A stretch of DNA of 64,000 nucleotides from Croceicoccus sp. YJ47 (lineage in GTDB: Bacteria > Pseudomonadota > Alphaproteobacteria > Sphingomonadales > Sphingomonadaceae): NCBI RefSeq assembly GCF_016745095.1, contig NZ_CP067087.1, positions 872,501-936,500 on the forward strand, in the 5' to 3' direction. The notes beneath the pieces were generated by a model. It worked only from the letters and a program-made list of their open reading frames with translations. It was not told the DNA's origin and ran no database searches. The translations under genes were made by a program, and so were the position numbers. Of the stretch, positions 41,400 to 58,677 are shown piece by piece. Position 1 is the stretch's first letter. Each line of letters opens with the position of its first letter.

Positions 41400-41542
41400 C
41401 CGTTACAGTGATCGCTGATCCGATGCATGGTGACCGATGCCGGGCCAACAGGATATGTTAGTTTGCAAGGAATCTGGTCGATTGTTCCAAAATTCACCAT
41501 GCCAATGGCAGTAAGTTCCGCGGACGGGAATGACCGCCGCGT

Positions 41543-41932: not shown

Positions 41933-41940
41933 GTCTTTCC

Positions 41941-43119
41941 TTACCATCCCGCGAACCGTTGCCATTCCGCCTCGACCGCGTGGCTTTCGCCGCGCACCAC
42001 GTGATACGATCCATGCTGCGCGCCGGTTGCGCAGGCGTGGTTGGGAAGGATGCGCACCCTGTCGCCGATCTGCAGATCGGGCAGGACGGCATCCGATCCC
42101 TCGCGCACCGCGATGATCCCGTGTTCCTGGTTCGCGTCGACGAGGATCAGGTCGTCATAGGGAACGCCGTCGATGTCGCAGACCACGCCATAACCCTGAT
42201 CGACCGCTTGCTTCGCGGTTCCCCGGTCGCGCGACATCGCCATCCACCCCGCATCCACCAGGATCCATCCCTTGCGCGGCTGATGGCCGATCACGGTTCC
42301 CAGCACCGAGAGCGCGATGTCCTCCATGCGGCAGATACCGATGCCCGCCATGACGAGATCGAAGAAGACGAAGACCCCGGCGCGAACCTCGGTCACGCCA
42401 TCGAGATTGGCGGCATGATGCGCGGTCGGCGTGGAGCCGATGCTGACGACCGGGCAGGCATGGCCGAACTCGCGCAGGATCGTGGCGGCATCGACGACGG
42501 CCCGGCGCTCCTCTTCTGCACATTGCCTGAGCGCATCGTCTCCGCGCGCGGCATAGCTTCCGCCCGCATGGGTCAATACGCCGCGCAACTCTCCCCCGTC
42601 GGTCAACGCCGCGGCGATCGCGCCAAGGGTCTCCCGGTCACGCGGCAGCACGCCAGAGCGGTGGCCGTCGCAGTCTATCTCTATGAAGACCGGGATCGGC
42701 ATCTCCGCCTCGCGCGATGCGGCGGCCACCGCTTCGGCCTGCTCCACCGAATCCACCACGAGGGAAAGGTCGCAGCCCCCGCGGCGCACCGCCACGATCC
42801 TGTCGAGTTTGGATGGCGCGATGCCGACCGCATAGATGAGATCGGTAACGCCGGCCCCGGCAAAAAATTCCGCTTCGCGCAGGGTGGACACGGTCGCCGG
42901 CCCCTGCGGCGAGGACATCACCGCGTGCGCGACCGCGATCGACTTCGCCGTCTTGAGATGCGGGCGCAGCGTCACGCCGAACGGGTCGAGCCGCTCGCGC
43001 AGGCGGGCAACATTGCGCTCCATCCTGTCCGCGTCGAGGACGAGGCACGGCGTCTCGATCTGTGTCAGCGTCGTCTGGCCGGGCAGGTCCGTGTCGGCTG
43101 TGCGTACGGCTTCGCTCAT
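41941..43119 (-). CDS. DSD1-family PLP enzyme (D-serine / D-threo-hydroxyaspartate dehydratase or D-threonine aldolase type)
   Basis: A 392-residue fold-III PLP protein. The cofactor lysine is in LRPHLKTAKSIAVAHAV (about 52). The C-terminal domain carries the metal pair His and Cys in ILPNHACATGAQHGSY (about 355), typical of DSD1/D-threonine aldolase. The ATG at 43119 follows AGGAGAG. Members split or dehydrate D-hydroxy amino acids and need Zn2+ or Mn2+. Placement between an aldehyde dehydrogenase and RidA suits either chemistry: an aldolase would feed the dehydrogenase, a dehydratase would feed RidA. Confidence 0.85.
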   Translation of the reverse strand: MSEAVRTADTDLPGQTTLTQIETPCLVLDADRMERNVARLRERLDPFGVTLRPHLKTAKSIAVAHAVMSSPQGPATVSTLREAEFFAGAGVTDLIYAVGIAPSKLDRIVAVRRGGCDLSLVVDSVEQAEAVAAASREAEMPIPVFIEIDCDGHRSGVLPRDRETLGAIAAALTDGGELRGVLTHAGGSYAARGDDALRQCAEEERRAVVDAATILREFGHACPVVSIGSTPTAHHAANLDGVTEVRAGVFVFFDLVMAGIGICRMEDIALSVLGTVIGHQPRKGWILVDAGWMAMSRDRGTAKQAVDQGYGVVCDIDGVPYDDLILVDANQEHGIIAVREGSDAVLPDLQIGDRVRILPNHACATGAQHGSYHVVRGESHAVEAEWQRFAGW

Positions 43120-43162
43120 TCGTGCTCTCCTGCTGCGTCCGGGCGCGCGGAGATGGCGCGGC

Positions 43163-44602
43163 TCATGACGGGAAATACCCCAGCATGGCCTTCGTCTCGA
43201 GATATTCCTCGAACCCGAACACGCCATATTCGCGCCCGTTGCCGGACTGCTTGTAGCCACCGAAGGCCGCATGCGCGTCCCACGCGGGCAGGTTGATATG
43301 AACCTGCCCCGCCCGGATTTGCCGCGCGACGCGCCGCGCACGGTCGAGATCGGCCGATTGCACATGCGCGCCGAGGCCGTAGCAGGTGTCGTTGGCGATG
43401 CGGATGGCATCCTCCTCGTCCCGGTAGGGCACGAGGCACAGGACAGGCCCGAAGATTTCCTCGCTCGCGATGCGCATGTCCATCGACACGCCGGAGAAAA
43501 TCGTGGCCCTGGCATAAAACCCGCGGGTCAGCCCGTCGGGCCGCCCGGTCCCGCCGCACACGACCCTGGCGCCTTCGGCAATGCCCATTTCGATCATCGC
43601 CTGCACCTTGTCGAATTGCGGGCGATTGGCGAGCGGACCCATCAGCGTATTCTCGTCCGCAGGATCGCCGACGGTCATCGCCTCCGCCGCGGCGACGGCG
43701 AGCGCCTCGACCTCGGCGAGCCGGTCGCGGGGGACGAGCATGCGGGTCGGCGCGCTGCACGATTGGCCGGCATTGCGCATCGCGGACGCCACGCCGGGCG
43801 CGACGACATTCGCGAAATCGGCATCGTCGAGCAGGATATTCGGCGATTTGCCGCCCAGCTCCTGCGTGACGCGCTTGACCGTGGGCGCGGCGGCCATCGC
43901 GACCTCGACCCCCGCGCGGGTCGATCCGGTGATCGAGACCATGTCCACGTCCGCGTGGCGGGAGAGCGCCGCGCCCACATCGGGCCCAGCCCCCATGACC
44001 ATGTTAAACACCCCAGCGGGCACGCCGGCATCGTCGAGCACCTGCGCGAAGATCTGCGCGCTGAGCGGGGAGAGTTCGCTGGGCTTGAGCACCATGGTGC
44101 ACCCGGTCGCCAGCGCCGGGGCGACCTTTGCGGTCATCTGGTACAGCGGCCAGTTCCATGGCGTGATGAGGGTGCACACGCCGATGGGTTCGCGCGCGAT
44201 CGCGGTGGTGCCTTGCCGGCGCAGGAAATCGAAACGGTCGAGCACCTCGATCGCGGCGCGGACATGCGCGATGCCGAACGGCACCTGCGCCGCGCGGGAA
44301 AACCCGATGGCGCAGCCCATCTCGCGCGTGATCGCCTGCGCGATGTCCTCCGCGCGCTCGTCCAGCAGTTCGGCAATCCTGCGCAGCAGCGCCGCCCGCT
44401 CACCGGGATCGGTGGCCGAAAACGCGGGAAAGGCCGCGCGCGCCGCCGCGACGGCCCGGTCGACATCGGCAATGCTGCCCAATGTGACCGTGCCGATCTG
44501 CGCTTCGCTGGCGGGGTCGATAATGGGAACGGCGCTGGATGCCCCGGCGGGCGCGACCCATTCGCCGCCGATATAGAACCTGTCGCAATCTGGCGTTTTC
44601 AT
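43163..44602 (-). CDS. NAD-dependent aldehyde dehydrogenase
   Basis: A 479-residue ALDH: TPWNWPLYQMTAKVAPAL (about 152), SITGSTRAG (about 230), the general base in QELGGKSPNILLDD (about 255) and the catalytic cysteine in NAGQSCSAPTRMLV (about 290). The C-terminal FGGYKQSGNGREYG is also typical. It is first in the operon ALDH, DSD1-type enzyme, RidA. The ATG at 44602 removes a spurious extension to 44665. The aldehyde substrate is not readable; glycolaldehyde or acetaldehyde from a D-threonine-type aldolase would fit. Confidence 0.88.
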   Translation of the reverse strand: MKTPDCDRFYIGGEWVAPAGASSAVPIIDPASEAQIGTVTLGSIADVDRAVAAARAAFPAFSATDPGERAALLRRIAELLDERAEDIAQAITREMGCAIGFSRAAQVPFGIAHVRAAIEVLDRFDFLRRQGTTAIAREPIGVCTLITPWNWPLYQMTAKVAPALATGCTMVLKPSELSPLSAQIFAQVLDDAGVPAGVFNMVMGAGPDVGAALSRHADVDMVSITGSTRAGVEVAMAAAPTVKRVTQELGGKSPNILLDDADFANVVAPGVASAMRNAGQSCSAPTRMLVPRDRLAEVEALAVAAAEAMTVGDPADENTLMGPLANRPQFDKVQAMIEMGIAEGARVVCGGTGRPDGLTRGFYARATIFSGVSMDMRIASEEIFGPVLCLVPYRDEEDAIRIANDTCYGLGAHVQSADLDRARRVARQIRAGQVHINLPAWDAHAAFGGYKQSGNGREYGVFGFEEYLETKAMLGYFPS

Positions 44603-44716
44603 CGGAATTCTGCCCTGTTCGGACGAGGGCGCCGGGTTCGGATACCCGATCATGGCCCGCGACATGGGTGGGAATGCCGATGAAAACTACGAAGCGTCGC
44701 GACACGCCTCAAGCCC

Positions 44717-44852: not shown

Positions 44853-45242
44853 TTATCCCTTCACGATGGTCTTTTCGGTAAAGCGCATCGCGGGGAACGG
44901 CATGTAGCTGATCCGCAGCCGCTGCCGCAGGGACAGCTTATGCTCGCCCTTGGGAAAGCCGCCGGGATAGGTCACCGACAAAGTGGCTAGCGCGCCGAAA
45001 TTCCAGCGCCGGTCATAGGTGGTTTCCATCTCCTCCAGCGTGATCGGCCCGTTGCCGTCGTCGAAGCTGACCGCCTCGCGGGGGAGTTCCTCGCCGTCGA
45101 CCGCCACGGTCATTTCTTCCAGCATCGAAAGCGTCAGCCCGCGATAATATCCCAGCTTGGTGGTGAAGCTGAAACCGGTCGGGCTGTCCTGGGGGCCGAT
45201 GTCGGTGACGCTGTCGGGATCGATAAGATATTTGTCGAACAT
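44853..45242 (-). CDS. C-glycoside deglycosidase beta subunit-like protein (DUF6379/CGDB)
   Basis: A 129-residue small beta protein with the CGDB/DUF6379 pattern: MFDKYLIDPDSV, GFSFTTKLGYYRGLTLSMLE, VDGEELP, ETTYDRRWNFGALATLSVTY, ending RLRISYMPFPAMRFTEKTIV. In known C-deglycosylating enzymes (CarB/CarC, DfgA/DfgB) this subunit binds a TIM-barrel alpha subunit and shapes its active site. Its ATG overlaps the alpha subunit's stop (TGATG), so both are made in equal amounts. A 13-bp hairpin follows. The frame starting at 45389 is only an upstream extension through the alpha gene. Confidence 0.85.
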   Translation of the reverse strand: MFDKYLIDPDSVTDIGPQDSPTGFSFTTKLGYYRGLTLSMLEEMTVAVDGEELPREAVSFDDGNGPITLEEMETTYDRRWNFGALATLSVTYPGGFPKGEHKLSLRQRLRISYMPFPAMRFTEKTIVKG

Positions 45243-46249
45243 CAGGCGTCCTCCTGCCCATTTGCGGTTTCGCCCAAGAGGCGCTTGAACATCTCGTGCT
45301 GACGCCGGACCTGCTCGCGGCTGTCGACTTCCATGACGTCCTGCACCCAGCGGTTGCCTTCGTATTCGCTCGACAAGGTTCCTTCCCAACCGGCCTTCAA
45401 AAGCTCGGGAATGACCTCGTCATAGGCGTGCGCCGGATCGCGGCAATCCTCGGTCATGCCATAGAACTTGGCCTGGATATGGCGGAAATAAGGGGCAAAA
45501 TCGCCGATCCGCTTGGGATTGGCATAGGGCGCGTGGCGCAGCGTTTCGGCCATGCGGATTTCGGACGGATTGCCCTTCATCTTCACCGCCACCTCGTAGA
45601 TGGTGTATTCGCACATCACCTTTTCCTCGTGCTGGTCCACGATGAACTGGGTGATTTCGGGCCGCGCACCTTCGCGCTCGAACCGCCCGCGCAGTTCGGG
45701 CGGGTAATGCTTCATGAAAATGCCCATGTCGGGCAGGATGCCGAGATGTTTCGTGCCGAGCCGGTCCGCCACCTCGATCGTGCGCAGGATCCACGGATGG
45801 TCGAGATACCACGGCGCGTGGACTTCCACGCCCATGTGCACGTCCAGTTCCTCGGCATAGGGCACGCAACGTTCCAGAATGTCGGGCCGCACGAAGATCA
45901 GCACGCGCATGTTCTTGATGCCCATGCGATTGCACAGGACGAGGTCACGCCGGATGCTCTCGATCTGCTCCTCGTCGGTCAGCAGACGGTCATTGCGCAG
46001 CTTCGTGTCGAGAAACATGTCGTAGCAGGTGAAATGGCAACCATGCCGTTCGAGCATCTCGTGCCAGCCTGCGATCTCCGCATCGGTGACGTTGGGAAAG
46101 CTGGGCATGTTCTGTTCGGGCAGGACCTCGATACCCTTCGCGCCGATGGACGCGGCAAAGGACACGCAGTCCTCCACGTTCATCTGGCCGAGGAACATCT
46201 CCTCCTGAAAACTATAGAGGCTGACGCCCCTGCGGATCTTGGATGCCAT
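45242..46249 (-). CDS. Sugar phosphate isomerase/epimerase-type TIM barrel, C-glycoside deglycosidase alpha subunit-like
   Basis: A 335-residue xylose-isomerase-like TIM barrel. The probable metal ligands appear in order: Glu in MGVEVHAPWYL (about 148), Asp in LGILPDMGIFMKH (about 177), His in FRHIQAKFYGM (about 252) and Glu in LSSEYEGNRW (about 290). Family members with a DUF6379 partner break the C-C bond between a 3-keto sugar and an aromatic ring, after a GMC-type oxidase makes the 3-keto form. The DUF6379 gene is coupled directly downstream. No GMC oxidase is in the window, so either it lies elsewhere or the substrate differs. Other isomerase roles remain possible. Confidence 0.85.
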   Translation of the reverse strand: MASKIRRGVSLYSFQEEMFLGQMNVEDCVSFAASIGAKGIEVLPEQNMPSFPNVTDAEIAGWHEMLERHGCHFTCYDMFLDTKLRNDRLLTDEEQIESIRRDLVLCNRMGIKNMRVLIFVRPDILERCVPYAEELDVHMGVEVHAPWYLDHPWILRTIEVADRLGTKHLGILPDMGIFMKHYPPELRGRFEREGARPEITQFIVDQHEEKVMCEYTIYEVAVKMKGNPSEIRMAETLRHAPYANPKRIGDFAPYFRHIQAKFYGMTEDCRDPAHAYDEVIPELLKAGWEGTLSSEYEGNRWVQDVMEVDSREQVRRQHEMFKRLLGETANGQEDA

Positions 46250-46615
46250 GCAATGGGCTCCTTTATTATGCCGGAAGATCGGCGGGATTGGGAAAAACGA
46301 ATGGGGTTGCAGGTGGCGGATCCGGGCCGGTCATGCCGGCATGAACGACCCGTGCCGCGCCCTCAAAAATGATTTCATCGGCGCCGATTTCGGACACGCA
46401 GAAAGGCCCGGTTACTGCATCATTGCCGCGAGAAAGGAAACCCGACCCCATGATCGCACCGATGGGCATGGTGGGCGCGGCCATATGTGACGCAGCCTCG
46501 CCCCCATGCAGGGCACGCGCGCCGCGGCGGGACAGCATGCCCCGCCCGGCGTCACCCCGGCAAAGCCTGCCGCCGACCGCAACGGAACGGCACCTGCATG
46601 ACCGGCGCATGGGCG
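46250..46615. other. 366-bp intergenic region, no gene supported
   Basis: It lies between the cupin and the alpha-subunit gene on the same strand. It may hold a separate promoter for the deglycosidase-like pair. No operator like those at 49413 or 56436 was seen in it. Confidence 0.4.
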
Positions 46616-47185
46616 TCAGCCTTCCAGCTCCGCATTGAATTTGCCGTCGATGAGGACGAAGCAGATGCGGCAATTCTGGTTGGTGCGATTGGCCCATCCG
46701 TGATTGGTGCCGCGCTGCACGATGATGTCGCCGGCGCGCACGGTGGTCTCGCCCTCGTCCATGATGAGCACGAGTTCGCCTTCGATCACTATGCCGTAAT
46801 CGATCGTCTCGGTGCGGTGCATGAGCGCGTGCTTCGCGCCGGCCTTTGCCGCATTGGACGCAGCGCCCGCGCCGATCTCGGCAAAATGGGCGGCGGCTTC
46901 CTCGGGCGTCATGTTGCGGATGCCGTCCCCCTCGGGCGGAATGTCGAGCACGCGGATGCGCGTGCCGTTCGCCGGCGGGGCGAGCACGATGCCCTCCTCG
47001 GCCGGTTCGCCGCTTGCCGCATCGATCGGTGCGGGCGTCGCGCGCGTGTTCCACACCTCGTGGAACATCGGGCCGATCGCGCCGCCGACCTGCTGCACCC
47101 GCGGCACCGCGCCGTCCTCCTGGATGATTGCGTTTCCGTCCTTGTCATGGCCGGTGACGACGCGCCTGACTGCCTTGCTTTCCAT
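46616..47185 (-). CDS. Cupin-domain protein of the aromatic cluster
   Basis: A 189-residue single cupin. The barrel is in the C-terminal half: MHRTETIDYGIVIEGELVLI, GETTVRAGDIIVQRGTNHGW (His, Glu and His metal set). The N-terminal part (about 1-100) is a non-barrel arm seen in cupins of aromatic-degradation loci. It lies 79 bp after the alpha/beta hydrolase gene. It may act on a ring-cleavage product or have a binding role; no reaction can be assigned. Confidence 0.75.
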   Translation of the reverse strand: MESKAVRRVVTGHDKDGNAIIQEDGAVPRVQQVGGAIGPMFHEVWNTRATPAPIDAASGEPAEEGIVLAPPANGTRIRVLDIPPEGDGIRNMTPEEAAAHFAEIGAGAASNAAKAGAKHALMHRTETIDYGIVIEGELVLIMDEGETTVRAGDIIVQRGTNHGWANRTNQNCRICFVLIDGKFNAELEG

Positions 47186-47264
47186 GAATCCTGTCCCTCG
47201 TTACGATGTTCCGGCCTCGATGCGGCGATGCGGCGTCCTTATCGCCGGGTCGCCGCGCCGCGCA

Positions 47265-48419
47265 TCACCCCGCCTGTCCGCCCAGCGTCTCTGCAAACCA
47301 GTCGGAGAGGAGGTCGCGGCCATAGGCCATGTTGTCGGCGCCGACATGTTCGACCCCGCCTTCGCGTTCGGTGAAGATCACCTTTTCCCGCCGCGGCGAA
47401 TTGACGAGCTGCTCGTACAGATCGTCGGCATAGGTCGGGCTGATCTGCCGGTCGTTCGCGCCGTGGGTCACGAGGAAGGGCACCGTGATCCGGTCCATGT
47501 GGCCGTTGAGGTTCATCCCGGACGATTTCTCGAGGAAATCCTCCTGGTCCTCGGCGCCGAAGGCCCAGTGCACATGCGCCCAGTAATGCGGCACGGGGTT
47601 CTCGCCCTCGCGCTGCATGCGCTTGTCCTGCACCTCGCGCCAGTTGTGGTTCGCGCCCCACACCGCGCCGCTGGCAAAGCGCGGTTCGTAGGCAACCGCG
47701 CGTGGCGCGAAATGACCGCCCAGCGAAATGCCGGTCATGCCGATGCGGTTGGCGTCGACCTCGTCGCGGCCCTCCAGCCAGTCCACCGCCTTCGAGGCCC
47801 AGCTTTCGCTATGCGGATCGACCGGCAGACCCTGCAACCGCAGCGCCTCGCCGCTGCCCGGCTGATCGACGCAGAGGGTCGAAATGCCGCGCCGCGCCAG
47901 CTCCTCGGGCAGGCGGGTCCAGTAGAGCAGCTCCTTGCAGCTATCGAGCCCGTTGCAGAACACGACCGCCGGCATGGCCCCATCGCCCGGCGCGCGGGTC
48001 CACAATGCGGGCATCGTGCCGGTGTCGAGCGGGATCTCCACCCGCTCGCGATTGATGCGGAGCCTGGTCGAACGGTCGAACGCCTCGCGCGCCTTCGCAA
48101 AGGTCTCCGTGCGGCCCGGGTGGCCGTGGCCCTGCATCCGCTCCGCCGTGAAGAGGTAGAGCGAGGCACGCTCCAGCTTGTTCGAGGCGGAAAAGGCGCG
48201 GCCCTTCGCCGCATCCTCGTCCGCGAGGGCGAGCAGCTTCTCGCCCATCTTCGCCCATTCGCGCATGAACGCGGGCGTGCCGGCATCCGCGCCCTCGTTC
48301 GCCGCGTCGAGGATCGGCTGACACATGTCGACGATCTCGCCGACCTGCCCGCCGCTTTCCATCGCGATGGCGACGCTGAGGTTCCAGATATAGTTCTTGA
48401 ACGGGGAGTAGAGGGCCAC
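47265..48419 (-). CDS. Alpha/beta hydrolase related to 2,6-dihydroxypseudooxynicotine-type C-C hydrolases
   Basis: A 384-residue protein with an N-terminal helical cap (about 1-120) and an alpha/beta hydrolase core. The nucleophile serine is in IGMTGISLGGHFAPRA (about 230), the oxyanion region is PAVVFCNGLDSCKEL (about 148), and the acid and histidine are in VTHGANDRQISPTYA and GGVEHVGADNM near the end. The long N-terminal cap is the mark of the FrsA/DHPON hydrolase group, some of which cut C-C bonds in keto compounds. It starts 3 bp after the dioxygenase stop; together they would open a ring and split the product. Confidence 0.8.
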   Translation of the reverse strand: MALYSPFKNYIWNLSVAIAMESGGQVGEIVDMCQPILDAANEGADAGTPAFMREWAKMGEKLLALADEDAAKGRAFSASNKLERASLYLFTAERMQGHGHPGRTETFAKAREAFDRSTRLRINRERVEIPLDTGTMPALWTRAPGDGAMPAVVFCNGLDSCKELLYWTRLPEELARRGISTLCVDQPGSGEALRLQGLPVDPHSESWASKAVDWLEGRDEVDANRIGMTGISLGGHFAPRAVAYEPRFASGAVWGANHNWREVQDKRMQREGENPVPHYWAHVHWAFGAEDQEDFLEKSSGMNLNGHMDRITVPFLVTHGANDRQISPTYADDLYEQLVNSPRREKVIFTEREGGVEHVGADNMAYGRDLLSDWFAETLGGQAG

Positions 48420-48422
48420 GGC

Positions 48423-49328
48423 TCAGATCTCCGCCGGGGTGAACAGGCAGGGGTCCGCTTCGGGCTTGGGCATGGTCTGCGGACCGCCGACGCCGGTGCC
48501 CCACTGGTCCATGACCTGCGGGCCGGGTTCGTGGACCTTGTCCTCGTGGTTCTCGAAATCGACCTCGTCCAGTTCGGAGGTGTATTCCACCGCAAAGCCA
48601 CCGGGCGTCGTGAAATAGCTGAACGTGTTGTTGCCCGCCGTATGCCGCCCCGGGCCCCAGCGGATGTCGGTCCCGCGCTTCTTCAGCCGCGAGGCGCCCC
48701 GCATCATGTCATCGACCGTCAGCATGTCATAGGCGACATGGTTGAGGCACGGCGGCCCCGGCAGCAGCGCGATGCGGTGATGCGCCGAATTGCAGCGCAG
48801 GAAGCACATGAAATCGCCGAGCCAGTCGCTCACCCTGAAGCCGAGCACATCGGTAAAGAACGCCACCATCGCCTGGTGATCGGGCGAGTGGAGCACGATA
48901 TGGCTGATCTTGACCGGCGTGCCTTCCCAGCGTTCCATCGCGCGCTTGTCCGCCCGGGCGACATCGGCGCTGATCTCGAACGGCAGGCCGTCGGGCGAGA
49001 AGAAGCGAAAGCCATAGCCGCCGCCCGGCGCATCGAGATCGCGCGGTTCGTGCACGATCCTGCACCCGGCATCCACGACCCTGGCGTGGAGCGTGTCGAC
49101 ATCGGCGCGGCTGTCGGCCGCCAGCGCGATCACCTCGACGCAATTGCTCTCCCGCTTGTGCAGGCGCACCACGTGATGTTCGTCATGGCCATGCGTCTTG
49201 AACCAGGCGGTATCCTCGCTCGCCCCCACCTCGACCAGACCCCAGTCGTCGGTGTAAAACGCGCGCTCCGCGTCAAAATCGCTGGTGCCGTATCCGACAT
49301 AGCGGATCTCGGTAACACGGGCGGTCAT
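48423..49328 (-). CDS. Extradiol-type (VOC fold) ring-cleavage dioxygenase
   Basis: A 301-residue two-domain VOC protein like 2,3-dihydroxybiphenyl dioxygenase. The active C-terminal domain has the Fe(II) ligands His in VKISHIVLHSP (about 143), His in CLNHVAYDMLT (about 208) and Glu in GFAVEYTSELD (about 260). A second-sphere histidine is in WGPGRHTAGNNTF. It would cleave a catechol ring next to its hydroxyls. The ATG at 49328 follows AGAGGA and is preferred over a TTG two codons upstream. It is the first gene of the operon and has an inverted-repeat operator 85 bp upstream. Confidence 0.85.
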   Translation of the reverse strand: MTARVTEIRYVGYGTSDFDAERAFYTDDWGLVEVGASEDTAWFKTHGHDEHHVVRLHKRESNCVEVIALAADSRADVDTLHARVVDAGCRIVHEPRDLDAPGGGYGFRFFSPDGLPFEISADVARADKRAMERWEGTPVKISHIVLHSPDHQAMVAFFTDVLGFRVSDWLGDFMCFLRCNSAHHRIALLPGPPCLNHVAYDMLTVDDMMRGASRLKKRGTDIRWGPGRHTAGNNTFSYFTTPGGFAVEYTSELDEVDFENHEDKVHEPGPQVMDQWGTGVGGPQTMPKPEADPCLFTPAEI

Positions 49329-49412
49329 GGGCAATTCCTCTCTGCGGGGGGGATGGAAAGACAGGTTCGGCCTGAACCGAAACGGTGTCTCTTCCGAGTT
49401 TCGTTCGCTATT

Positions 49413-49430
49413 TTAGAATTACGCTTCTAA
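49413..49430. promoter_or_regulatory. Candidate TetR operator at the dioxygenase operon promoter
   Basis: TTAGAATTACGCTTCTAA: perfect 6-bp arms around a 6-base spacer, placed upstream of the dioxygenase gene. Same architecture as 56436-56459. Confidence 0.7.
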
Positions 49431-49448: not shown

Positions 49449-50909
49449 TCAATCCCGCGCATTCCGGCGCTGCCCGAAAATGTCCCGAGGCAGACGCAGC
49501 ACGCACAGAATCGCCAGACCGAGCGCAAGCGCCATCACCGCATTGGCCGGATCCAGCCCCGCCAGCCGCGCCGCCGCGTCCTCGCCCGAAACCGAAAAAT
49601 AGGCGCCGCCTACAAGCGCAATGCCCAAAGCCCCGCCGATCTGCTGCGCCGTGCGCAGTGTCGCGCTGGCGGTGCCGGCGTTGTGCCGCTCGACCTCTGC
49701 GACCACGATCGGGCCGAGGGGACCGGACAAGGTGCCCATCCCGATTCCGGCCAGCAACAGCACCACATAGAGAATGGGGTCGCCACTGTTGCCGCCCTCG
49801 ATCGCCTGAAGCGTAAGCGTCGTGCCGGCGATCATCGCGAGACCGCCCGCAACCGGCAGTGCCTTGCCCAGTCGCGGCAGCAAGCGCGGCACGAGGAACC
49901 CGACGCCGATCATAACGCCTGCGCCGAACGGGATATGCACCAGCGCGGTTTGCAGCGGGCTCAATCCCAGCCCCTGCTGCAACGAGACGGCAAGCACCAG
50001 CAGGAAACCGATGGCCGCGCTGGAAAAGCAGAACGCGGACAACACGCCCCATTTAAAAGTCCCGATGCCGAACAGGCCCGGCTCGATAATGGCGGGCGAT
50101 CCGGCACGCCGGCGACGGCGCGCGCGGAACCAGCCATACAGGACAAGGCCAAAGGACACCGCGAACAGCGCGACCAGAGCCGGGCTCGCGCCCACCTCGG
50201 CGCCCTGGATCAAGGCATAGAGCAGCCCGCCGAAACCTGCGGCGAAGATCAAGGCGCCGACCGGATCGATGCGCAGGTCCTTTTCCGCCTGCCGCGGCGG
50301 CAGCGCGGCCCAGCCCACCAGGACGGCGAGCGCGCCGATCGGCAAATTGATGAGAAACACGAGCCGCCAGCCGAGGCCCAGCAGGTCGAGTTCGATCAGC
50401 ACGCCGCCCACGATCGGCCCGATGATCGCGGCAAGGCCCACGATCACACCGAAATAGGCGAGCTTCGACACACGTTCGAGCGGGGTGTAAAGCAATTGCA
50501 CGATCGCCATCGTCTGCGGCGCCATCACCGCGCCGGTCGCGCCTTGCAGCATGCGCGCCCAGACGAGTTGCTCCGGGCTCTGTGCCAGACCGCACAGCAC
50601 GGATGCGAGGACGAACGCGCTGACCCCGATCAGGAACACCCGCGAATGGCCGAACGCATCGCCCAGCCTCCCGCCCAGCAGCAGCAGCGACCCCAGCGTC
50701 AGCAGATAGCCCGCGACGATCCATTGCATCGCGGCGGGCGACGCGGACAGCGCGTCGCGAATCGCCGGAAGCGCGGTGTTGACGATCGTCGAATCCGCCA
50801 CCTCGAGCACGACCGCGGTAAGAACCGTGAAAAACGCGACGGTCTTGCGCCTTTCCGAAACCGCGGAATGGTCACCCGCCCGTGCCGCGGCACTGTTCAA
50901 ATCCGACAT
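49449..50909 (-). CDS. DHA2-family MFS transporter (EmrB/QacA type, 14 helices)
   Basis: A 486-residue transporter with DHA2 features: motif A GGRLGDAFGHSRVFLIGV (about 80), LQGATGAVMAPQTMAI (about 120) and the motif C region (about 165, VGGVLIELDLLGLGWRLVFL). Drug/proton antiporters of this type pump out toxic compounds; here it may export aromatic intermediates. The stop lies 19 bp from the operator of the dioxygenase operon, and its own promoter region, shared with the MFS gene at 51070, has another related site. Confidence 0.88.
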   Translation of the reverse strand: MSDLNSAAARAGDHSAVSERRKTVAFFTVLTAVVLEVADSTIVNTALPAIRDALSASPAAMQWIVAGYLLTLGSLLLLGGRLGDAFGHSRVFLIGVSAFVLASVLCGLAQSPEQLVWARMLQGATGAVMAPQTMAIVQLLYTPLERVSKLAYFGVIVGLAAIIGPIVGGVLIELDLLGLGWRLVFLINLPIGALAVLVGWAALPPRQAEKDLRIDPVGALIFAAGFGGLLYALIQGAEVGASPALVALFAVSFGLVLYGWFRARRRRRAGSPAIIEPGLFGIGTFKWGVLSAFCFSSAAIGFLLVLAVSLQQGLGLSPLQTALVHIPFGAGVMIGVGFLVPRLLPRLGKALPVAGGLAMIAGTTLTLQAIEGGNSGDPILYVVLLLAGIGMGTLSGPLGPIVVAEVERHNAGTASATLRTAQQIGGALGIALVGGAYFSVSGEDAAARLAGLDPANAVMALALGLAILCVLRLPRDIFGQRRNARD

Positions 50910-50953
50910 CGCCCCTCCCCGCCGGCAGCCGTTTCATAGCTGCTTTCGACAAA

Positions 50954-50971
50954 TTAAAATCATCCTTCTAT
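50954..50971. promoter_or_regulatory. Candidate TetR operator between divergent MFS genes (imperfect)
   Basis: TTAAAATCATCCTTCTAT: the right arm TTCTAT equals that of the site at 56436; the left arm differs at two positions from a perfect repeat. Located in the divergent promoter region of two MFS transporters. Confidence 0.5.
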
Positions 50972-51069
50972 TATCGCCTGAAATTGGTAAGGGGTCAATC
51001 GTTCCCGATGACGATGTCCGCGATTGCGGGCGTGGCCGGGAAACCGGAAAAACGGATGGGAGGGACCGA

Positions 51070-52329
51070 ATGACCAACAACGGCGAAGCCGGACGCAAGG
51101 CGGGAATACCGCAGGGGATAACGGTAATTCTTGCCGGTTTCCTGCCGATATTGGCGATCGTTTCGATGTTTCCCGCGGTCGGGGCCATGATCGGCCATTT
51201 CGCGCCGACCGACCCGAACGCGGCAACCAAGGTCCCCTCGATGGTGACCGCGCCGGGCCTCGCGATCGCCGTCACGGCGCTGTTCATGGGCTTGCTCGTC
51301 GACCGTTTTGGTAAGCGCAAGCTGCTGCTGATCTCGACCTTCTCCTACGGTTTTATCGGGGTCATTCCCTTTTTCCTCGAAGATCTCGACTGGATCTACG
51401 CCTCGCGGCTGCTGCTGGGCTTCAGCGAGGCGGCGATCCTGACGACGGTCAACACGCTCCTCGCGGATTACTGGGCCGAGGACGGTCGCCGCCGCTGGCT
51501 CACGCTACAGGGGATGGTCGGTCCGGCGCTATCGTCGGTCATGATCTTCTTTGCCGGCACGCTCACCGCGTGGCGCTGGAACGGGATCTTCCTGCTTTAC
51601 CTGTTCGCCATTTTCATCGCGATCGCGATGTGGCGCTACATGTTCGAACCCGAAAGCGATGCCACCGTGCGCCGCAACCTCGGCATGGACGAGGACCGCA
51701 CGGCGGGCGATGCGTTCCCGTGGGGCACGATGCTGGGCATTGCGGTGCTGACCTTGTTCAGCTCGGCAATCTATTACGTGTTCATCGTGAACGGTTCGGT
51801 CGTGTGGGAAGAGCTGGGCATCGCCGATCCCGAAAGCATCGGCCGCATCACCGCATTGCCGAGCCTCTTCATCCTCGCCGGCGCGGGCCTGTTCTGGCTC
51901 CTAGGACGGCAAGGCTGCAGCTTCCGCATCCAGGTCGCGGTGTTCCTGCTGCTCTTGGCGAGCGGGCTGGCACTCATGGGGCTGACCTCCAACTGGCAAG
52001 GGATGGTCGCGGGCATGGCATTGCAGCAGACGGGCGCTGGCATGACCATCCCCACGCTCATCGTCTGGGCACAGAGCCGCCTGCCATTCGCGCATCGCGG
52101 ACGCGGCATGGGCGTGTGGACGGCGACCTTCTTCTTCGGTCAGTTCTCCTCGCCGCTGATGGTCAGCCTCCTGCGCGAGCAACTGGGCTCAATGCAGCAG
52201 GCGTTCCTTGCGATGGGCATCCTGTCGGCGGTCGGCGCGCTGGTGTTCTTCCTGATCCTGGGGCGAACCCGCACCGCGCCGAAGGAGGCGCTGATCGCTG
52301 CGGCGGCAAAACAGGGCAACGTTCCCTGA
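51070..52329 (+). CDS. MFS transporter, 12 helices
   Basis: A 419-residue MFS protein with helices starting at ITVILAGFLPILAIVSMFPA, motif A MGLLVDRFGKRKLLLIST (about 74) and a periplasmic acid-containing loop (GHFAPTDPNAATKVPSM). The ATG at 51070 has GGGAGGGA upstream; earlier starts overlap the divergent promoter. A likely uptake system for a sugar or aromatic acid, since it faces away from the exporter-like gene but shares its promoter region. Confidence 0.88.
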   Translation: MTNNGEAGRKAGIPQGITVILAGFLPILAIVSMFPAVGAMIGHFAPTDPNAATKVPSMVTAPGLAIAVTALFMGLLVDRFGKRKLLLISTFSYGFIGVIPFFLEDLDWIYASRLLLGFSEAAILTTVNTLLADYWAEDGRRRWLTLQGMVGPALSSVMIFFAGTLTAWRWNGIFLLYLFAIFIAIAMWRYMFEPESDATVRRNLGMDEDRTAGDAFPWGTMLGIAVLTLFSSAIYYVFIVNGSVVWEELGIADPESIGRITALPSLFILAGAGLFWLLGRQGCSFRIQVAVFLLLLASGLALMGLTSNWQGMVAGMALQQTGAGMTIPTLIVWAQSRLPFAHRGRGMGVWTATFFFGQFSSPLMVSLLREQLGSMQQAFLAMGILSAVGALVFFLILGRTRTAPKEALIAAAAKQGNVP

Positions 52330-52690
52330 TCGCGGCCCCGGCCCGGCCGGTGGGTCCATACGACATGCCGCCTTCGGGCTCGCGCTGGGGTCGCCTGTCC
52401 CTCTGGGGAGGGGACCATCGATGAGAAGGGCCGGTCACATGGCACGCGGCAAGACCATCGCCTCGCCGCTCGCGATATGGGCGGGGCGTCCGGTCATGGC
52501 GGGATGCGCGACCGGCCTGTTCGCGCCCATCAGCGCGACGACGCGTGTCGCCACGCTCTTCGCGGTGCGATTGGTAGAGGCCGGACGGGATGGAGCGATC
52601 CGGGTCATGCCGGGCGCCATCGTCATCGCCAATTCCACATCATCTTCGCGGAGCGGACACGCTTCCGCAAGGCGCCGTCGTGGTCACGCT
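52330..52690. other. Intergenic region before the NTF2-like gene
   Basis: No gene is supported, though an open frame continues upstream from the next gene as far as 52421 without family resemblance. Confidence 0.4.
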
Positions 52691-53596
52691 ATGCCTGATC
52701 ATGGTCCTGCTGCCCGCCTGCCCGGCGCGCGGCATTGCAACTCAGGGGAGAGAGAAACGAAGAAATACCTGTCTGGACGCATCATTCCCGCCGCCGTGCT
52801 GGCCGCAACGTCGCTTGTCGTGCCCGCCCATGCGCAGACCGACACCAGCCTGGCGCAGCTTGCGCAGAAGGTCGCGCAACTCGAAGACGATGCCGCGGCG
52901 GCGCGCGACCATCAGGCGGTCGAGAACCTGTTTTCCCGGTACATGTATCTGCACAATGCGTTCGAGGACGAACAGATCATTCCGCTCTGGGCGAAGGAAG
53001 GCACGCCCGGGATGAGCGCGCAATATTCCAATCTCGGCAAATACACGAAATATGAAAAGATCATGGAATATCACAGTGGCCGTCCCTCGCCGATCGGCAA
53101 GCTGCTGTTCCATTATATCACCACGCCGGTGATCGAGGTGGCCGGCGACGGCAAGACCGCAAAGGGCCTGTGGATCGTCAACGGCCTGGAAAGCGGTCTG
53201 ACCGCGCCGGAATACGCCAAGAACATGCCCGAATGGATGTTCGAGCCGGATGTCGAGGTCGACGGCAAGAAAGTGTGGATGCACAATGTCTATCTGAAAT
53301 ACGGCATCGACTTCATCAAGCAGGACGGCGAGTGGAAAATCTGGCACTTCCATTGCTTCGAGGTGGCGCGTGCGCCCTATTCGATGGGCTGGATCCCGTT
53401 TGCGGACGCCGCGCAGGATGACGCCTTTAATTTGGACCTCATGTATATTGGCGAAAACGGGGCCCCGATCTTCATGCCCGAGCCGGACGAGCCCGCCACG
53501 GTGATGAACAACACCTATCGCACCGACAGCGCGCAAAAGCTGGAAGCGCGCATTCCGGTGCCTTACGAGACATTCTCGGAAACCTTTTCCTACTGA
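52691..53596 (+). CDS. Secreted NTF2/SnoaL-like protein with unclear start codon
   Basis: The protein has a signal peptide (KKYLSGRIIPAAVLAATSLV, cleavage after AHA), a short helix (LAQLAQKVAQLEDDAAAARD) and then an NTF2/SnoaL fold (AVENLFSRYMYLHNAFEDEQ to KIWHFHCFEVARAPYS). Some SnoaL-like proteins are cyclases, isomerases or dehydratases in aromatic pathways. The nearest ATG in frame is at 52691 but has no ribosome site and adds 22 unusual residues. The natural start appears to be ACG at 52757, right after AGGGGAGAG and before AAG AAA TAC, as if ATG had mutated to ACG. A strong terminator follows. Confidence 0.8.
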   Translation: MPDHGPAARLPGARHCNSGERETKKYLSGRIIPAAVLAATSLVVPAHAQTDTSLAQLAQKVAQLEDDAAAARDHQAVENLFSRYMYLHNAFEDEQIIPLWAKEGTPGMSAQYSNLGKYTKYEKIMEYHSGRPSPIGKLLFHYITTPVIEVAGDGKTAKGLWIVNGLESGLTAPEYAKNMPEWMFEPDVEVDGKKVWMHNVYLKYGIDFIKQDGEWKIWHFHCFEVARAPYSMGWIPFADAAQDDAFNLDLMYIGENGAPIFMPEPDEPATVMNNTYRTDSAQKLEARIPVPYETFSETFSY

Positions 53597-54102: not shown

Positions 54103-56397
54103 TCAGAATTCCACGCCCACGCGCACGCCGTAGGTCCGCGGCGCCTGGAACGTGAAGTCGAAATTATCGTCCGGACCGGCCGACACGAAGTTCGCATAGG
54201 ACAGCGGTTGCTCATCCTCGAGATTGCGGACGAACGCCTGGATGCTCCACACCTCGCTGAGCGGCTGATACTTCAGGCTCAGGTCGGTCTGGGTATAGGC
54301 TTCCTGCTCGCCCGACCGATAGTTGAAGATGGTCGTGAAATATTCGCTCTTGAACCGCGAATAGGCGCTGGCCGTGAGCGTGCCCGCATTGCCCAGTTCG
54401 AACACGTGGTCATAGCCCAGCGTGATGGTGAACTTGGGCGATTGGGGAAGCGTGTTGCCAGCGAGGTTCGGCTGCACCAGATCTGGCCCGGGATCCAGGT
54501 CGGGAAGCCCGTTGTTGTTCGGGTTGACGGTGTCGAAGATCGCATAGGACGCGAACAGCTCGTCATATTCCGCGTTCAGATAGTTGAACGAGGCGGTGAA
54601 TGTGTCGAGCGGGCTAAGCTTGAAATTGCCCTCGACCTCGAAACCCCAGATGGTGGCGGCACCGGCGTTGAACACCTGCTGGCCAATACCCGGATTAAGC
54701 AGAACCGCGGTCTGCAGATCCGTGTAATCGTAATAGAACCCGGCAGCGTTCAGGACATGCTCTCCGGTCGGTCCAAGATTCAGCTTCACGCCGCCTTCAT
54801 ATGCCGTGTTCGTTTCGGGATCGTACGGACCGACGCTGTCGAAACCGCCCGACTTGTACCCGGTCGATACCTTGGCATAGATCAGCGTGTCGATGTTGGG
54901 CTGATAGTTGACGCCCGCAAGCCAGGTCAGCTGCTCGTTGTCCTGCTTCTGGGGAATGATCGACGGCGGCGGTCCCTCGGGAGCGACGGGAGGCGTGTTG
55001 AAGCGGAAGCCGTAGTTCCCGAACACGCCGTCGCGGCGATCGATCGTATAGCGCAGACCGCCGACCACGGTGAACGTATCGCTGAGCGCCAGTTCCACCT
55101 GCCCGAAACCGGCATAGCTCTTGGAATCGGTGTCGCGCGTGAAGGTGTTGAGGAAGCTGCCGTTGGGCCCGATGAACGGGCTGTAGAGACCGCGCAGATT
55201 GCTCAGCTGCTCACGATAATAGAATACGCCGCCCTGATAGGTCAGCGCGCCGGCGGTGCCGTTCACGCGAAGCTCGTGGCTCTGCGTCTCGACCGTGTTG
55301 GCGAATTCGTAGAACGTGTAGCGCGGCAGGGCGAGATCGGTGTCCTGATCCGTGCGGCGATATCCGCCGAGGTAGGTCAGCGTTGCACCCCCAAGGTCGT
55401 ACTGGACCTTGCCGCGCACCGCGTAGCTGTCCTGCTTGTTAGGGTTGAGCGGGATCTGCGGCACCGGGCCGTCATATGTCGAACGATCGGGGAAAGCGTC
55501 CGCGATATCGGTGTTGACCGGAATGCACTGCCCACCCGGAATCAACGGGGCGGCGTCGACAAAGCCGTTCTGCGAGCAGTCGGGACCAGGCCCCTGGCCC
55601 GGCGCATTGAAATTGTACGATGCGAAGGCACCGACGATACTCTCGTTATGCACATATTCGCCCGACAGATCGACGGTCAGCGCATCGCTTGGCATCAGGC
55701 TGATCGTGGCGCGTGCACCCACATTGTCGGCGGTGCCGCTGCGAACCTTGTCGCTGCCCGCAGCCGCGCGGTTGGGGTGGAAGAAATAGCCGTCGCGCTT
55801 GTTGTACACGCCCGCGAGGCGAAGGCCGCCGATCGGGCCGATCGGAATGTCGACGCCCCCTTCCAGCTTCCGATGGTCGTAATTGCCATAGGTTGCATTG
55901 ATGTCAGCGCCGAACGTCGTGCCGGGTTTGCGCGTGATGAAGTTGATCGCGCCGCCGGTCGCGTTGCGGCCGTAAAGCGTGCCCTGCGGCCCGCGCAGCA
56001 CCTCGATCCGGTCGATGTCGAACAGCGCGAGGTTCAGCACGTTGGGGCGGTTGATATATTCGCCGTCGATATTGACCGCGACGGACTGGTCCTGCCCCTC
56101 GTCGTTTGAATTGGTACCCACGCCGCGCACGGCGACACGGGTATAGTTACCGTCCTGCGTGATGTTGAGCGCCGGCGCGATGCGGCTCAGATCCTGGAAG
56201 TCGGTGACGCCCGCATCCTCGATTGCTTCGTCGCCGATGACGTCGATCGCGATCGGAACGTCCTGCACGTTCTGAGACCGGTTCTGCGCCGTGACGATGA
56301 TCTCGTTTTCGTTGTATTGCGCCAGCGCAGGCGATGCCGTCACGCCGAGGGCGCAGCTCGCGAACAGGACATGCCTGTAGCGGTGTATTCTCATCAA
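54103..56397 (-). CDS. TonB-dependent receptor of the TetR-linked aromatic cluster
   Basis: A 764-residue outer-membrane receptor with signal peptide (to ALA, about 26), TonB box ENEIIVTAQNRSQ (about 30), plug (VPIAIDVIGDEAIEDAGV to about 165, with IEVLRGPQGTLYGRNATGG) and a barrel ending VRVGVEF. It belongs to the large sphingomonad group of receptors with the GRNATGG plug, which take up varied organic substrates, not only iron. Its promoter carries the best inverted repeat (56436-56459) and faces the TetR gene. It likely imports the substrate of the dioxygenase/deglycosidase cluster. Confidence 0.92.
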   Translation of the reverse strand: MMRIHRYRHVLFASCALGVTASPALAQYNENEIIVTAQNRSQNVQDVPIAIDVIGDEAIEDAGVTDFQDLSRIAPALNITQDGNYTRVAVRGVGTNSNDEGQDQSVAVNIDGEYINRPNVLNLALFDIDRIEVLRGPQGTLYGRNATGGAINFITRKPGTTFGADINATYGNYDHRKLEGGVDIPIGPIGGLRLAGVYNKRDGYFFHPNRAAAGSDKVRSGTADNVGARATISLMPSDALTVDLSGEYVHNESIVGAFASYNFNAPGQGPGPDCSQNGFVDAAPLIPGGQCIPVNTDIADAFPDRSTYDGPVPQIPLNPNKQDSYAVRGKVQYDLGGATLTYLGGYRRTDQDTDLALPRYTFYEFANTVETQSHELRVNGTAGALTYQGGVFYYREQLSNLRGLYSPFIGPNGSFLNTFTRDTDSKSYAGFGQVELALSDTFTVVGGLRYTIDRRDGVFGNYGFRFNTPPVAPEGPPPSIIPQKQDNEQLTWLAGVNYQPNIDTLIYAKVSTGYKSGGFDSVGPYDPETNTAYEGGVKLNLGPTGEHVLNAAGFYYDYTDLQTAVLLNPGIGQQVFNAGAATIWGFEVEGNFKLSPLDTFTASFNYLNAEYDELFASYAIFDTVNPNNNGLPDLDPGPDLVQPNLAGNTLPQSPKFTITLGYDHVFELGNAGTLTASAYSRFKSEYFTTIFNYRSGEQEAYTQTDLSLKYQPLSEVWSIQAFVRNLEDEQPLSYANFVSAGPDDNFDFTFQAPRTYGVRVGVEF

Positions 56398-56435: not shown

Positions 56436-56459
56436 TAAATAGAATTCATGTTCTATTTA
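56436..56459. promoter_or_regulatory. Candidate TetR operator at the TonB receptor promoter
   Basis: TAAATAGAA TTCATG TTCTATTTA: perfect 9-bp arms with a 6-base spacer, 39 bp upstream of the receptor ATG and between it and the TetR gene. Confidence 0.75.
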
Positions 56460-56709: not shown

Positions 56710-57390
56710 ATGCGAACTGAACCATCCGGCTCCACACCGAGTCTCGAAAAACTGTCGCAGGCGGCGATCAGCCGCCGGCCACGACAGGGGCGCAGCCTTG
56801 CCTCGTTCGAACGGATGCTGATCGCGACGCGTGCGCTGATGCTCGAACGCGGAAGCGAGGAATTCACGCTGCAGGATGTGAGCGAGCGTGGAAGCGTCTC
56901 GATCGGCTCGATCTATCTCCGGTTCGAGAGCAAGGATCGCCTCCTCTATGCCGTCATCTCGCGGGAACTGGAAACGGTGATCGAGGAAGAGGCCGCGATG
57001 GTCCGCTCTGTTGCCAGAAAATGCAGCAATCTCAAAGATTTTCTGGCCATATACATCGGCGAATATACCGCCTTCATGGGCAAGCACGCGGGCATGTTGC
57101 GGGTCATCATGCAGCGCGCCGCGATCGATCCGCTGGTGTCCGCGCCCGGCAAGGAAACGGCCTACACGGCGTTGGCACAAACGACCGAGGTGATGATGTC
57201 CTACCGGGATGAAATCCGGTCGAAGAACGCGAGGTTAAAGGCGGAAATGACGCTCCACCTCATCTATGCCGCCGTCGCCCGGCAGCTCGGTCTGGGCGCC
57301 TCGCCGGAGGCCGAGGATCCGGACGTGTGGGCCACCTTGCGTCCCGAACTGGCCGAAATGGCCTATGCCTATCTGAAGCATTCGGGCTGA
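56710..57390 (+). CDS. TetR family regulator
   Basis: A 226-residue protein. The HTH lies at about 35-80 (FERMLIATRALMLERGSEEF, LQDVSERGSVSIGSIYLRFE), followed by a helical ligand-binding domain. Divergent from the TonB receptor. Because the same inverted repeat occurs at the receptor promoter, the dioxygenase operon promoter and, weaker, the divergent MFS region, it is likely the repressor of the whole cluster. The ligand may be the aromatic substrate or a CoA or ring-cleavage product. Confidence 0.88.
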   Translation: MRTEPSGSTPSLEKLSQAAISRRPRQGRSLASFERMLIATRALMLERGSEEFTLQDVSERGSVSIGSIYLRFESKDRLLYAVISRELETVIEEEAAMVRSVARKCSNLKDFLAIYIGEYTAFMGKHAGMLRVIMQRAAIDPLVSAPGKETAYTALAQTTEVMMSYRDEIRSKNARLKAEMTLHLIYAAVARQLGLGASPEAEDPDVWATLRPELAEMAYAYLKHSG

Positions 57391-58666: not shown

Positions 58667-58677
58667 GAATTTCCCCC

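Follow-up and report, generated by a model that had tools for sequence, protein, structure and literature searches.

A split gene set in Croceicoccus sp. YJ47 that may couple C-deglycosylation of plant flavonoids to cleavage of the A ring

A 64,000-nt stretch of contig NZ_CP067087.1 from Croceicoccus sp. YJ47 (genome size 3.35 Mb), called the window here, carries the two subunits, alpha and beta, of a predicted C-glycoside deglycosidase (CGD) in the same run of genes as a predicted extradiol dioxygenase, an alpha/beta hydrolase, and a cupin, with transcription on the minus strand in the order dioxygenase, hydrolase, cupin, CGD alpha, and CGD beta (Table 1). We consider it probable that the window holds one half of a split, jointly regulated route by which C-glucosides of plant flavonoids (resembling vitexin, orientin, or mangiferin), and possibly O-glucosides as well, would be degraded through meta-cleavage of the A ring of the kind associated with the fde and ifc clusters. 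The enzymes are all of known kinds. What appears to be new is the way they are combined, the regulon and its operator, and a variant of the CGD metal site in which a glutamine replaces a histidine.

The proposal of a first-pass annotation that a TIM-barrel protein (335 AA) and a DUF6379 protein (129 AA) form the alpha and beta subunits of a CGD held up against the databases. The family of the smaller protein, PF19906, is named 'C-glycoside deglycosidase beta subunit' in Pfam, and the two reading frames meet at GCCTGATGTTC, where the stop codon of alpha and the start codon of beta overlap as TGATG. Window alpha was 51% identical to 8qvc, the closest solved alpha, and further matched the PDB entries 9m3a, 9m3b (DgpC1), 7bvr, 7xrf, 8qrz, 7dnm, and 7bvs, with E-values of 1.5e-38 to 7e-31 for the solved CGDs DgpC1 (9m3b), PuCGD (7bvr), AgCGD2 (7dnm), and EuCGD (7bvs). 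Window beta matched 8umc/8qvc first (1.1e-21), followed by DgpB1, DfgB, and DgpB.

In AgCGD2 the metal is bound by E147, D179, H269, K271, and E305, with H149 and E307 as catalytic residues (PMC8563793). Mapped to PuCGD, the metal site of window alpha consists of E142, D174, Q259, K261, and E295, which keeps four of the five residues of the CGD set Glu, Asp, His, Lys, Glu and differs from the Glu, Asp, His, Glu ligands read in the first-pass annotation; the catalytic His and its partner Glu (H143/E301 in PuCGD, H149/E307 in AgCGD2) are kept as H144 and E297. Throughout the 41 rows of the alpha alignment the catalytic pair was invariant, as were four of the five metal ligands. Where the metal His would stand, Gln was found in every row of the window clade (17/17) and in the alpha of a third CGD pair in the same genome (locus B, see below), and His in every row of the sister clade (17/17), in Deinococcus aetherius, and in five PDB chains. 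This alignment omits the divergent matches G186:C36 and G065:C1:888684 and most plasmid matches (including those of PP1Y and TomTYG65), its EuCGD row was joined from two pieces, and its PDB rows are partial stretches of chains. In the alpha tree the window clade and the sister clade were each fully supported (100/100), with a long-branch warning among the outgroup rows. Since one ligand of five is changed, we describe the window protein as CGD-like with one defining ligand changed. It is not decaying, as its dN/dS relative to Croceicoccus marinus was 0.048, the strongest purifying selection among the seven genes compared; the value for beta was 0.098. The YYRG motif of window beta is kept, and its second Tyr (Y33) stands at the position of Tyr39 in the beta subunit of PuCGE, a placement made by taking Tyr39 of 7bvr_B as the second Tyr of SYYRG (ungapped match to the beta subunit of a second CGD pair, at locus A) and from the beta alignment. 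The remaining site residues and the gene context suggest that the pair works as a beta-eliminase, in which Gln259 may bind the metal or may go with an altered substrate preference.

The changed ligand is also the starting point for the strongest alternative, in which the A-ring route is real and the pair mainly beta-eliminates 3-keto O-glucosides of flavonoids, like AtOGE of Agrobacterium, the Gln variant having lost C-C cleavage. PuCGE cleaves 3-keto O- and C-glucosides alike, and plant glycosides are mostly O-linked (PMC10628242). However, AtOGE lacks a beta subunit, whereas the window beta has been kept under selection. Loss of Tyr39-beta in PuCGE abolished C-glucoside cleavage and lowered O-glucoside cleavage only modestly (PMC10628242), and a Tyr is kept at this position in the window; moreover, oxidised O-glycosides are reported to shed their sugar without an enzyme (PMC12724307). 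We consider exclusive or predominant O-glucoside cleavage unlikely on these grounds, and suggest instead that the pair may cleave 3-keto O-glucosides in addition, as PuCGE does.

The dioxygenase, the hydrolase, and the cupin, which the first-pass annotation had placed upstream on the same strand, were each borne out by family and PDB matches. The predicted dioxygenase has a two-domain VOC fold in which H143, H197, and E248 (numbered from the ATG start, with an alternative TTG at 49334) align with the H/H/E facial triad of BphC (1han), and we take these residues to be the iron ligands of type I extradiol dioxygenases; its match to TIGR03211 (7.7e-28) lay below the cut-off of the model. A gap of 3 bp separates it from the gene for the hydrolase, whose best solved match is 2jbw, the C-C hydrolase 2,6-dihydroxypseudooxynicotine (DHPON) hydrolase. 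Motifs point to S232, D323, and H358 as its presumed catalytic triad, and it was 52-56% identical to members of clusters in Burkholderia, Massilia, and Deinococcus. Among the best 80 of 580 matches in a scan with the hydrolase alignment, most came from other groups of organisms and none from Herbaspirillum or Variovorax; this shows the family to be widespread and not flavonoid-specific. The cupin was 46% identical to one in an fde/ifc-like cluster of Burkholderia, and is likened to IfcD from gene content only.

The first-pass annotation had expected a GMC-type sugar oxidase and a ring hydroxylase to lie elsewhere in the genome, and the window gave no match to the GMC protein of C. marinus or to the monooxygenase of Novosphingobium US6-1. 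We searched the genome with proteins of the C. marinus plasmid cluster as queries. At C1:3,329,986-3,344,612 (the GMC locus), with all genes on one strand beside a second dioxygenase-hydrolase-cupin copy, we found a GMC oxidoreductase 86% identical to the C. marinus cluster enzyme together with an FAH protein (73%), a Gfo/Idh/MocA enzyme (81-82%), a gluconate-dehydrogenase-type small subunit (80%), a TIM isomerase (90%), a GH3 protein (79%), and a TonB receptor. The GH3, Gfo/Idh, isomerase, small-subunit, and GMC genes form a same-strand run that we infer to be one operon. The expected GMC protein was thus present, although it was most like sugar dehydrogenases of the FAD type, with fructose dehydrogenase at 4e-43 as against 3e-9 for pyranose oxidase, and its assignment as a CarA/PurA-type oxidase was set aside for that reason. 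The small subunit carries a twin-arginine-like motif. Candidates for oxidation at C3 of the sugar are the GMC protein with its small subunit (subunit 3) and the Gfo/Idh/MocA enzyme, for which C3 activity is a prediction only. A putative ring hydroxylase, an FAD monooxygenase adjoining a divergent LysR gene at C1:1374607-1375721, was 70-72% identical to one that adjoins a dioxygenase-hydrolase pair in Novosphingobium US6-1. Its role is taken from its company with the dioxygenase, and its reading frame is broken, a point to which we return. A single query, run without a positive control, found no cyclase like that of other clusters in the genome.

Window positions 46613-49349 and C1:3330930-3333662, covering the dioxygenase, hydrolase, and cupin, are 99.7% identical over 2737 bp. 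The two copies of this 2.7-kb block lie about 0.92 Mb apart on the circle and have one operator each, and the second cupin copy is split in two frames. The repeat suggests a recent duplication or gene conversion within a split cluster, and the C. marinus cluster is apparently represented here in split form, with its middle part duplicated.

Two further CGD pairs are present in this genome. Locus A (C1:31407-40408) holds a His-type pair together with DoxX, ThuA, GPH symporter, sulfatase, and TonB genes, the sulfatase hinting at sulfated glycosides. At locus B (C1:136105-143342), the alpha subunit is 32% identical to window alpha and also has the Gln, and the neighbours are a 3-keto-disaccharide-hydrolase-like gene, a PhyH dioxygenase gene, and TonB and TetR genes. 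GMC gene fragments with stops lie beside these two loci (C1:30081-30923 and C1:148184-148578, respectively), as if each had once had its own GMC gene. The contig start (C1:1-17758) repeats the contig end (C1:3335558-3353207) at 84-98% identity with many gaps, which looks like the untrimmed noisy end of a circular assembly; with the ends joined as a circle, no more than tens of kb separate locus A from the GMC locus. A GMC piece at contig positions 3-665 was rejected as a separate relic locus, being part of this repeat.

Comparison of the promoter stretches of the window, locus A, and the GMC locus revealed a common palindrome, TAGAA-N6-TTCTA. It was derived from these three loci, and its independent tests are the rest of the genome and other genomes. 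Eight exact sites were found genome-wide, two of them repeats at the noisy contig start, and all six distinct sites fall in one of the three loci. In locus A a site stands 80 bp ahead of the CGD alpha gene; the two dioxygenase copies have theirs 85 and 196 bp upstream, two TonB genes 42 and 18 bp upstream, and the GH3 gene 395 bp upstream. The last of these precedes the first gene of the run that ends in GMC, which answers the suggestion in the first-pass annotation that a GMC gene with the same operator be sought. The backward-read pattern, used as a control, had four sites genome-wide. The operator of the second dioxygenase copy was not simply copied, since it is located beyond the duplicated block and its spacer differs in sequence. 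In the other CGD genomes, 17 of 22 have exact sites (28 in total), and 22 of these 28 are no farther than 15 kb from a CGD or dioxygenase gene, in stretches that together make up 1.44% of the bases (binomial p 1e-35, with the 15-kb limit picked after the sites had been viewed); the backward control gave 40 sites in the same 22 genomes. Across 20 CGD neighbourhoods (394,619 bases) there were 10 operator sites, whereas the backward control had none there and the 19 other arm-letter orders had at most one apiece. The window TetR protein, which has a 63% identical paralog at locus A, is the likely binder of this operator, because one site lies between the TetR and TonB genes and because in D. aetherius the gene for a TetR protein 33% identical to it (2.8e-31) adjoins an exact site, with the CGD genes roughly 9 kb away.

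The association of the CGD with the dioxygenase was examined in a sample of 396 genomes of the order, with cut-offs of E<=1e-50 for CGD alpha, outside which divergent CGDs such as the locus B type fall, and E<=1e-60 for the dioxygenase. CGD alpha was found in 23 genomes and the dioxygenase in 46, the latter being present in all 23 CGD genomes versus 23 of the 373 others (p 7e-25, or 8e-27 after removal of six genomes with only weak dioxygenase matches). At the genus level, which gives the safer figure because genomes are related, the dioxygenase was present in 7 of 7 CGD genera versus 7 of 78 others (p 7e-7). The starts of the two genes were at most 10 kb apart in 12 of the 23 genomes. From 31 CGD alpha matches, 25 neighbourhoods were examined, two of them in the Croceicoccus sp. 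YJ47 genome itself, leaving out G203, G186 (two), G382, and the second copies of G355 and G213. A monooxygenase, a dioxygenase, and a hydrolase lay near the CGD pair in eight genomes (G144, G156, G186, G213, G222, G331, G355, and G383), with GMC, small-subunit, TIM isomerase, and Gfo/Idh genes added in some of them. Outside the order, alpha (E<=1e-25) was rare, with 0 of 398 genomes in a sample of the phylum and 1 of 385 (G925) in a sample of the class.

Near-complete versions in one locus occur in Croceicoccus, Novosphingobium, and Sphingobium, and with partly different enzymes in Deinococcus. The C. marinus plasmid cluster runs from GH3, Gfo/Idh, TIM isomerase, small subunit, GMC, and two MFS genes through the dioxygenase, hydrolase, two small genes, cupin, and FAH to CGD alpha and beta, with the monooxygenase elsewhere on the same plasmid. 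The clusters of Novosphingobium sp. P6W, Novosphingobium sp. PP1Y, and Sphingobium sp. TomTYG65 contain a cyclase and no gene labelled as a cupin, and Sphingomonas sp. R1 has an FAD monooxygenase, dioxygenase, hydrolase, and cupin together without a CGD. D. aetherius has a single run of FAD monooxygenase, hydrolase, FAH, cyclase, VOC, GMC, CGD beta, and CGD alpha genes, with ABC transporter genes in place of TonB; its monooxygenase (46% identical) and hydrolase (56%) are clear relatives, and its VOC (23%) and GMC (24%) proteins only distantly related. The pairing of C-deglycosylation with ring cleavage put forward in the first-pass annotation is thus supported by these computational tests, but with an FAD monooxygenase present in many of the clusters, ring cleavage probably does not act directly on the released aglycone.

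These data also bear on whether the CGD and ring-cleavage genes merely share an island of plant-compound genes while serving separate pathways, with the dioxygenase module acting on some other aromatic. The dioxygenase occurred without a CGD in 23 of the 46 dioxygenase genomes, and CGD genes without a nearby dioxygenase occur in RAC03 and G925; in contrast, CGD alpha at the above cut-off was never found without a dioxygenase among the 396 genomes, one operator precedes both kinds of gene in the window genome, and in Deinococcus a comparable set of ring-cleavage genes shares a single run with the CGD genes. We regard separate pathways as very unlikely, and chance adjacency of the two gene sets was set aside by the co-occurrence, linkage, and operator tests. 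Least probable is that the TIM barrel and DUF6379 proteins form a sugar isomerase or epimerase with no part in deglycosylation. Pfam puts alpha only in a broad xylose-isomerase-like family, several matched PDB entries carry isomerase titles, and the fold evidently has further uses, since the clusters also contain a distinct gene that resembles sugar isomerases. Against this, the alpha/beta pairing, the catalytic His/Glu, and the GMC and Gfo partners fit CGDs, and eight of the nine PDB sequences matched by alpha came from entries that also match beta (on the same chain in 8qrz), the ninth, Art22, being a weak match (1.3e-4).

Like the known CGDs (DgpBC/PuCGD, DfgAB/EuCGD, AgCGD2, CarBC, and PurBC, of which CarBC and PurBC were set beside the window by description and the others by sequence), the window pair combines an adjacent TIM-barrel alpha and beta with the catalytic His/Glu, the metal Glu/Asp/Lys/Glu, the beta Tyr, and a likely sugar-oxidising partner in the genome. 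Unlike them, the window clade has Gln for the metal His and is tied to ring-cleavage genes, and the oxidising partner in the window genome resembles an FAD dehydrogenase with a small subunit, compared to an FAD oxidase (CarA, PurA) or an NAD enzyme (DgpA). The chain pair 8qvc/8umc, the closest solved alpha and beta, is nearly identical to a D. aetherius protein and differs from the window in having the metal His. It is possibly the CGD from Deinococcus aerius treated by Furlanetto et al. 2024.

The fde (Herbaspirillum, naringenin) and ifc (Variovorax, isoflavone) clusters share the families of FAD monooxygenase, glyoxalase-fold dioxygenase, DHPON-like hydrolase, and cupin, and the consulted parts of the source name no CGD or GMC for them (PMC11069340). 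Three members of this family set lie in the window, and the fourth is the frameshifted monooxygenase gene elsewhere in the genome. In the ifc system, IfcA 8-hydroxylates daidzein, IfcB is a glyoxalase-type protein 65.8% identical to FdeC, and a pyranone product is the substrate of the IfcD cupins; IfcA was inactive on isoflavone glycosides, for which the authors suggest hindrance by the C7 or C8 sugar (PMC11069340). FdeE, which accepts many flavonoids, hydroxylates at C8 (PMC11303751). Hindrance of the kind suggested for IfcA offers a chemical reason why the CGD genomes are a subset of the dioxygenase genomes. Fde/ifc-like clusters of Burkholderia and Massilia resembled the window type in the hydrolase (52-54%), FAH (46-54%), and monooxygenase (42%), and that of Burkholderia also in the cyclase (73%), while the Rhizobium K84 and B. 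elkanii regions contained no clear ifc clusters. PurABC homologs have been noted in Pseudomonadota in work that traced puerarin no further than the aglycone (PMC12724307). Among the titles and abstract openings listed (up to 25 of as many as 469 matches per search) we found no paper joining C-deglycosylation with ring cleavage, with the qualification that the D. aerius cluster paper (Furlanetto et al. 2024) may treat neighbouring genes. The layout that the first-pass annotation expected to be new is thus absent as a joint set from the literature covered, but it recurs in other sphingomonads and has a counterpart in Deinococcus.

Taken together, the proposed route would begin with import of the glycoside by the TonB receptors and removal of outer sugars by GH3 and other enzymes. 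The GMC dehydrogenase and its small subunit would then oxidise the C3-OH of the sugar, as family and context suggest. The CGD subunits would hold the 3-keto sugar at a divalent metal (E142, D174, Q259, K261, E295), where H144 would abstract the C2 proton, the A-ring phenol would be ionised with help from Y33 of beta, and beta-elimination would yield the aglycone and 2-hydroxy-3-keto-glucal; this is the mechanism published for other CGDs, the residues of which are present here except for the His-to-Gln change. The TIM isomerase and the Gfo/Idh/MocA enzyme may feed the sugar back to central metabolism. By analogy with fde and ifc, the FAD monooxygenase would hydroxylate the freed A-ring carbon, a step that follows deglycosylation for 8-C-glucosides because the carbon is free only once the sugar is gone, after which the extradiol dioxygenase would cleave the A ring, leaving a product to be cut by the DHPON-type hydrolase, the cupin, and the FAH protein. 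A TetR repressor at TAGAA-N6-TTCTA would govern most of the loci.

Several observations weigh against this reading. The FAD monooxygenase frame is broken near C1:1374905 (two frames), which may be a real loss or an assembly error, and the strain may be unable to complete the route. The 34-kb stretch around the monooxygenase and the locus B stretch contain no exact operator, so that some parts may lie outside the common control. An exact operator is likewise absent from 5 of the 22 other CGD genomes and from the stretches of P6W, PP1Y, RAC03, R1, and US6-1. Alanine at the equivalent metal-site and catalytic positions of PuCGD and MiCGD lowers activity, mostly sharply, and the window clade has Gln where the His-to-Ala change sharply reduced it (PMC8563793); PuCGE, as noted, accepts 3-keto O-glucosides. 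In G925 the CGD pair lies with GMC and Gfo/Idh genes and no dioxygenase in the 34 kb examined, and RAC03 has a CGD without a dioxygenase in the 25 kb examined. The likeness to fde and ifc was judged from gene content and from the Burkholderia and Massilia relatives. For the dioxygenases of those two relatives, identity reached no more than 29-33%, and this over a partial stretch; that of Deinococcus is 23% identical. Deletion of the hydrolase locus in Variovorax left daidzein degradation unaffected (PMC11069340). Given the limited comparison with fde and ifc and the low dioxygenase identities, we regard flavonoids as the likely, not the proven, substrate class.

Upstream of the ring-cleavage and CGD run lie both MFS genes, the SnoaL-domain gene, the TonB receptor gene, and the TetR gene (Table 1), so that the receptor and regulator of its own ascribed to the system in the first-pass annotation are both present. 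The TonB receptor has 74-78% identical relatives in both other catabolic loci of the genome, and the SnoaL_4 protein has 58-72% relatives beside some other CGD pairs (six loci). Downstream of the pair are an aldehyde dehydrogenase gene (43163-44665) and a D-serine-dehydratase-like gene (41941-43515), and two window open reading frames (ORFs), 37923-39107 (394 AA) and 41403-42092 (229 AA), had no match in Pfam. Adjoining the TetR gene, positions 57773-63945 hold GH16, GH3, LacI-type regulator, and tryptophan-halogenase-like genes, which may form a locus of their own for glucan use.

Table 1. Features of the ring-cleavage and CGD region of the window (window coordinates).
Feature	Position	Strand	Evidence or remark
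CGD beta subunit (PF19906/DUF6379), 129 AA, predicted	44853..45242	-	Pfam 5.1e-36; PDB 8umc_B 1.1e-21
CGD alpha subunit, TIM barrel, 335 AA, predicted	45242..46249	-	PF01261 2.2e-13; PDB 8qvc 5.6e-107
Cupin, predicted to act on ring-cleavage product	46616..47185	-	PF07883 4.1e-10; PDB 3es1 6.8e-27
Alpha/beta hydrolase, DHPON-hydrolase/Ayg1 kind, predicted C-C hydrolase	47265..48419	-	PDB 2jbw 3.8e-16
VOC-fold (glyoxalase) extradiol dioxygenase, predicted	48423..49328	-	PF00903 1.4e-21; PDB 3b59 5.6e-156
Putative operator TAGAATTACGCTTCTA	49414..49429	.	Exact site; 85 bp from dioxygenase ATG
MFS transporter, DHA2-like	49449..50909	-	PF07690 6e-42; TIGR00711 1.2e-56 (below cut-off); 90% to C. 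marinus cluster MFS
Weaker operator-like site, one mismatch	50955..50970	.	Between divergent MFS genes
Second MFS transporter (start approximate; ORF 50776-52329)	51070..52329	+	PF07690 1.7e-30; 91% to C. marinus cluster MFS1
SnoaL_4-domain protein	52421..53596	+	PF13577 2.8e-15
TonB-dependent receptor	54103..56397	-	PF00593 2e-36
Putative operator TAGAATTCATGTTCTA	56440..56455	.	TonB/TetR intergenic stretch, 42 bp from TonB gene
TetR-family regulator, proposed repressor	56710..57390	+	PF00440 2.2e-8

As a wider evolutionary account, for which we put the chances at about even, sphingomonads would have evolved a dedicated TetR/TAGAA-N6-TTCTA regulon coupling flavonoid C-deglycosylation to meta-cleavage of the A ring, with a Gln-for-His variant of the metal site that has changed its metal or bond preference, while Deinococcus would use a related regulator and the same operator with partly different enzymes. 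C-glucosides resist ordinary glycosidases and their environmental fate is poorly known; in the papers examined, work on soil C-deglycosylation ends at the aglycone, where work on A-ring cleavage begins. If our reading is true, this gene set would join both into one route that can be tested in cultured strains, and the order of its steps would be explained by removal of the sugar from C8 before hydroxylation at C8. The gene set would also supply a regulator/operator pair, and it suggests roles for the generically named solved proteins 3b59 and 3es1, the matches of the dioxygenase and the cupin. The natural Gln variant, in turn, would provide a means to ask what the metal His does in beta-eliminases that cleave C-C bonds.

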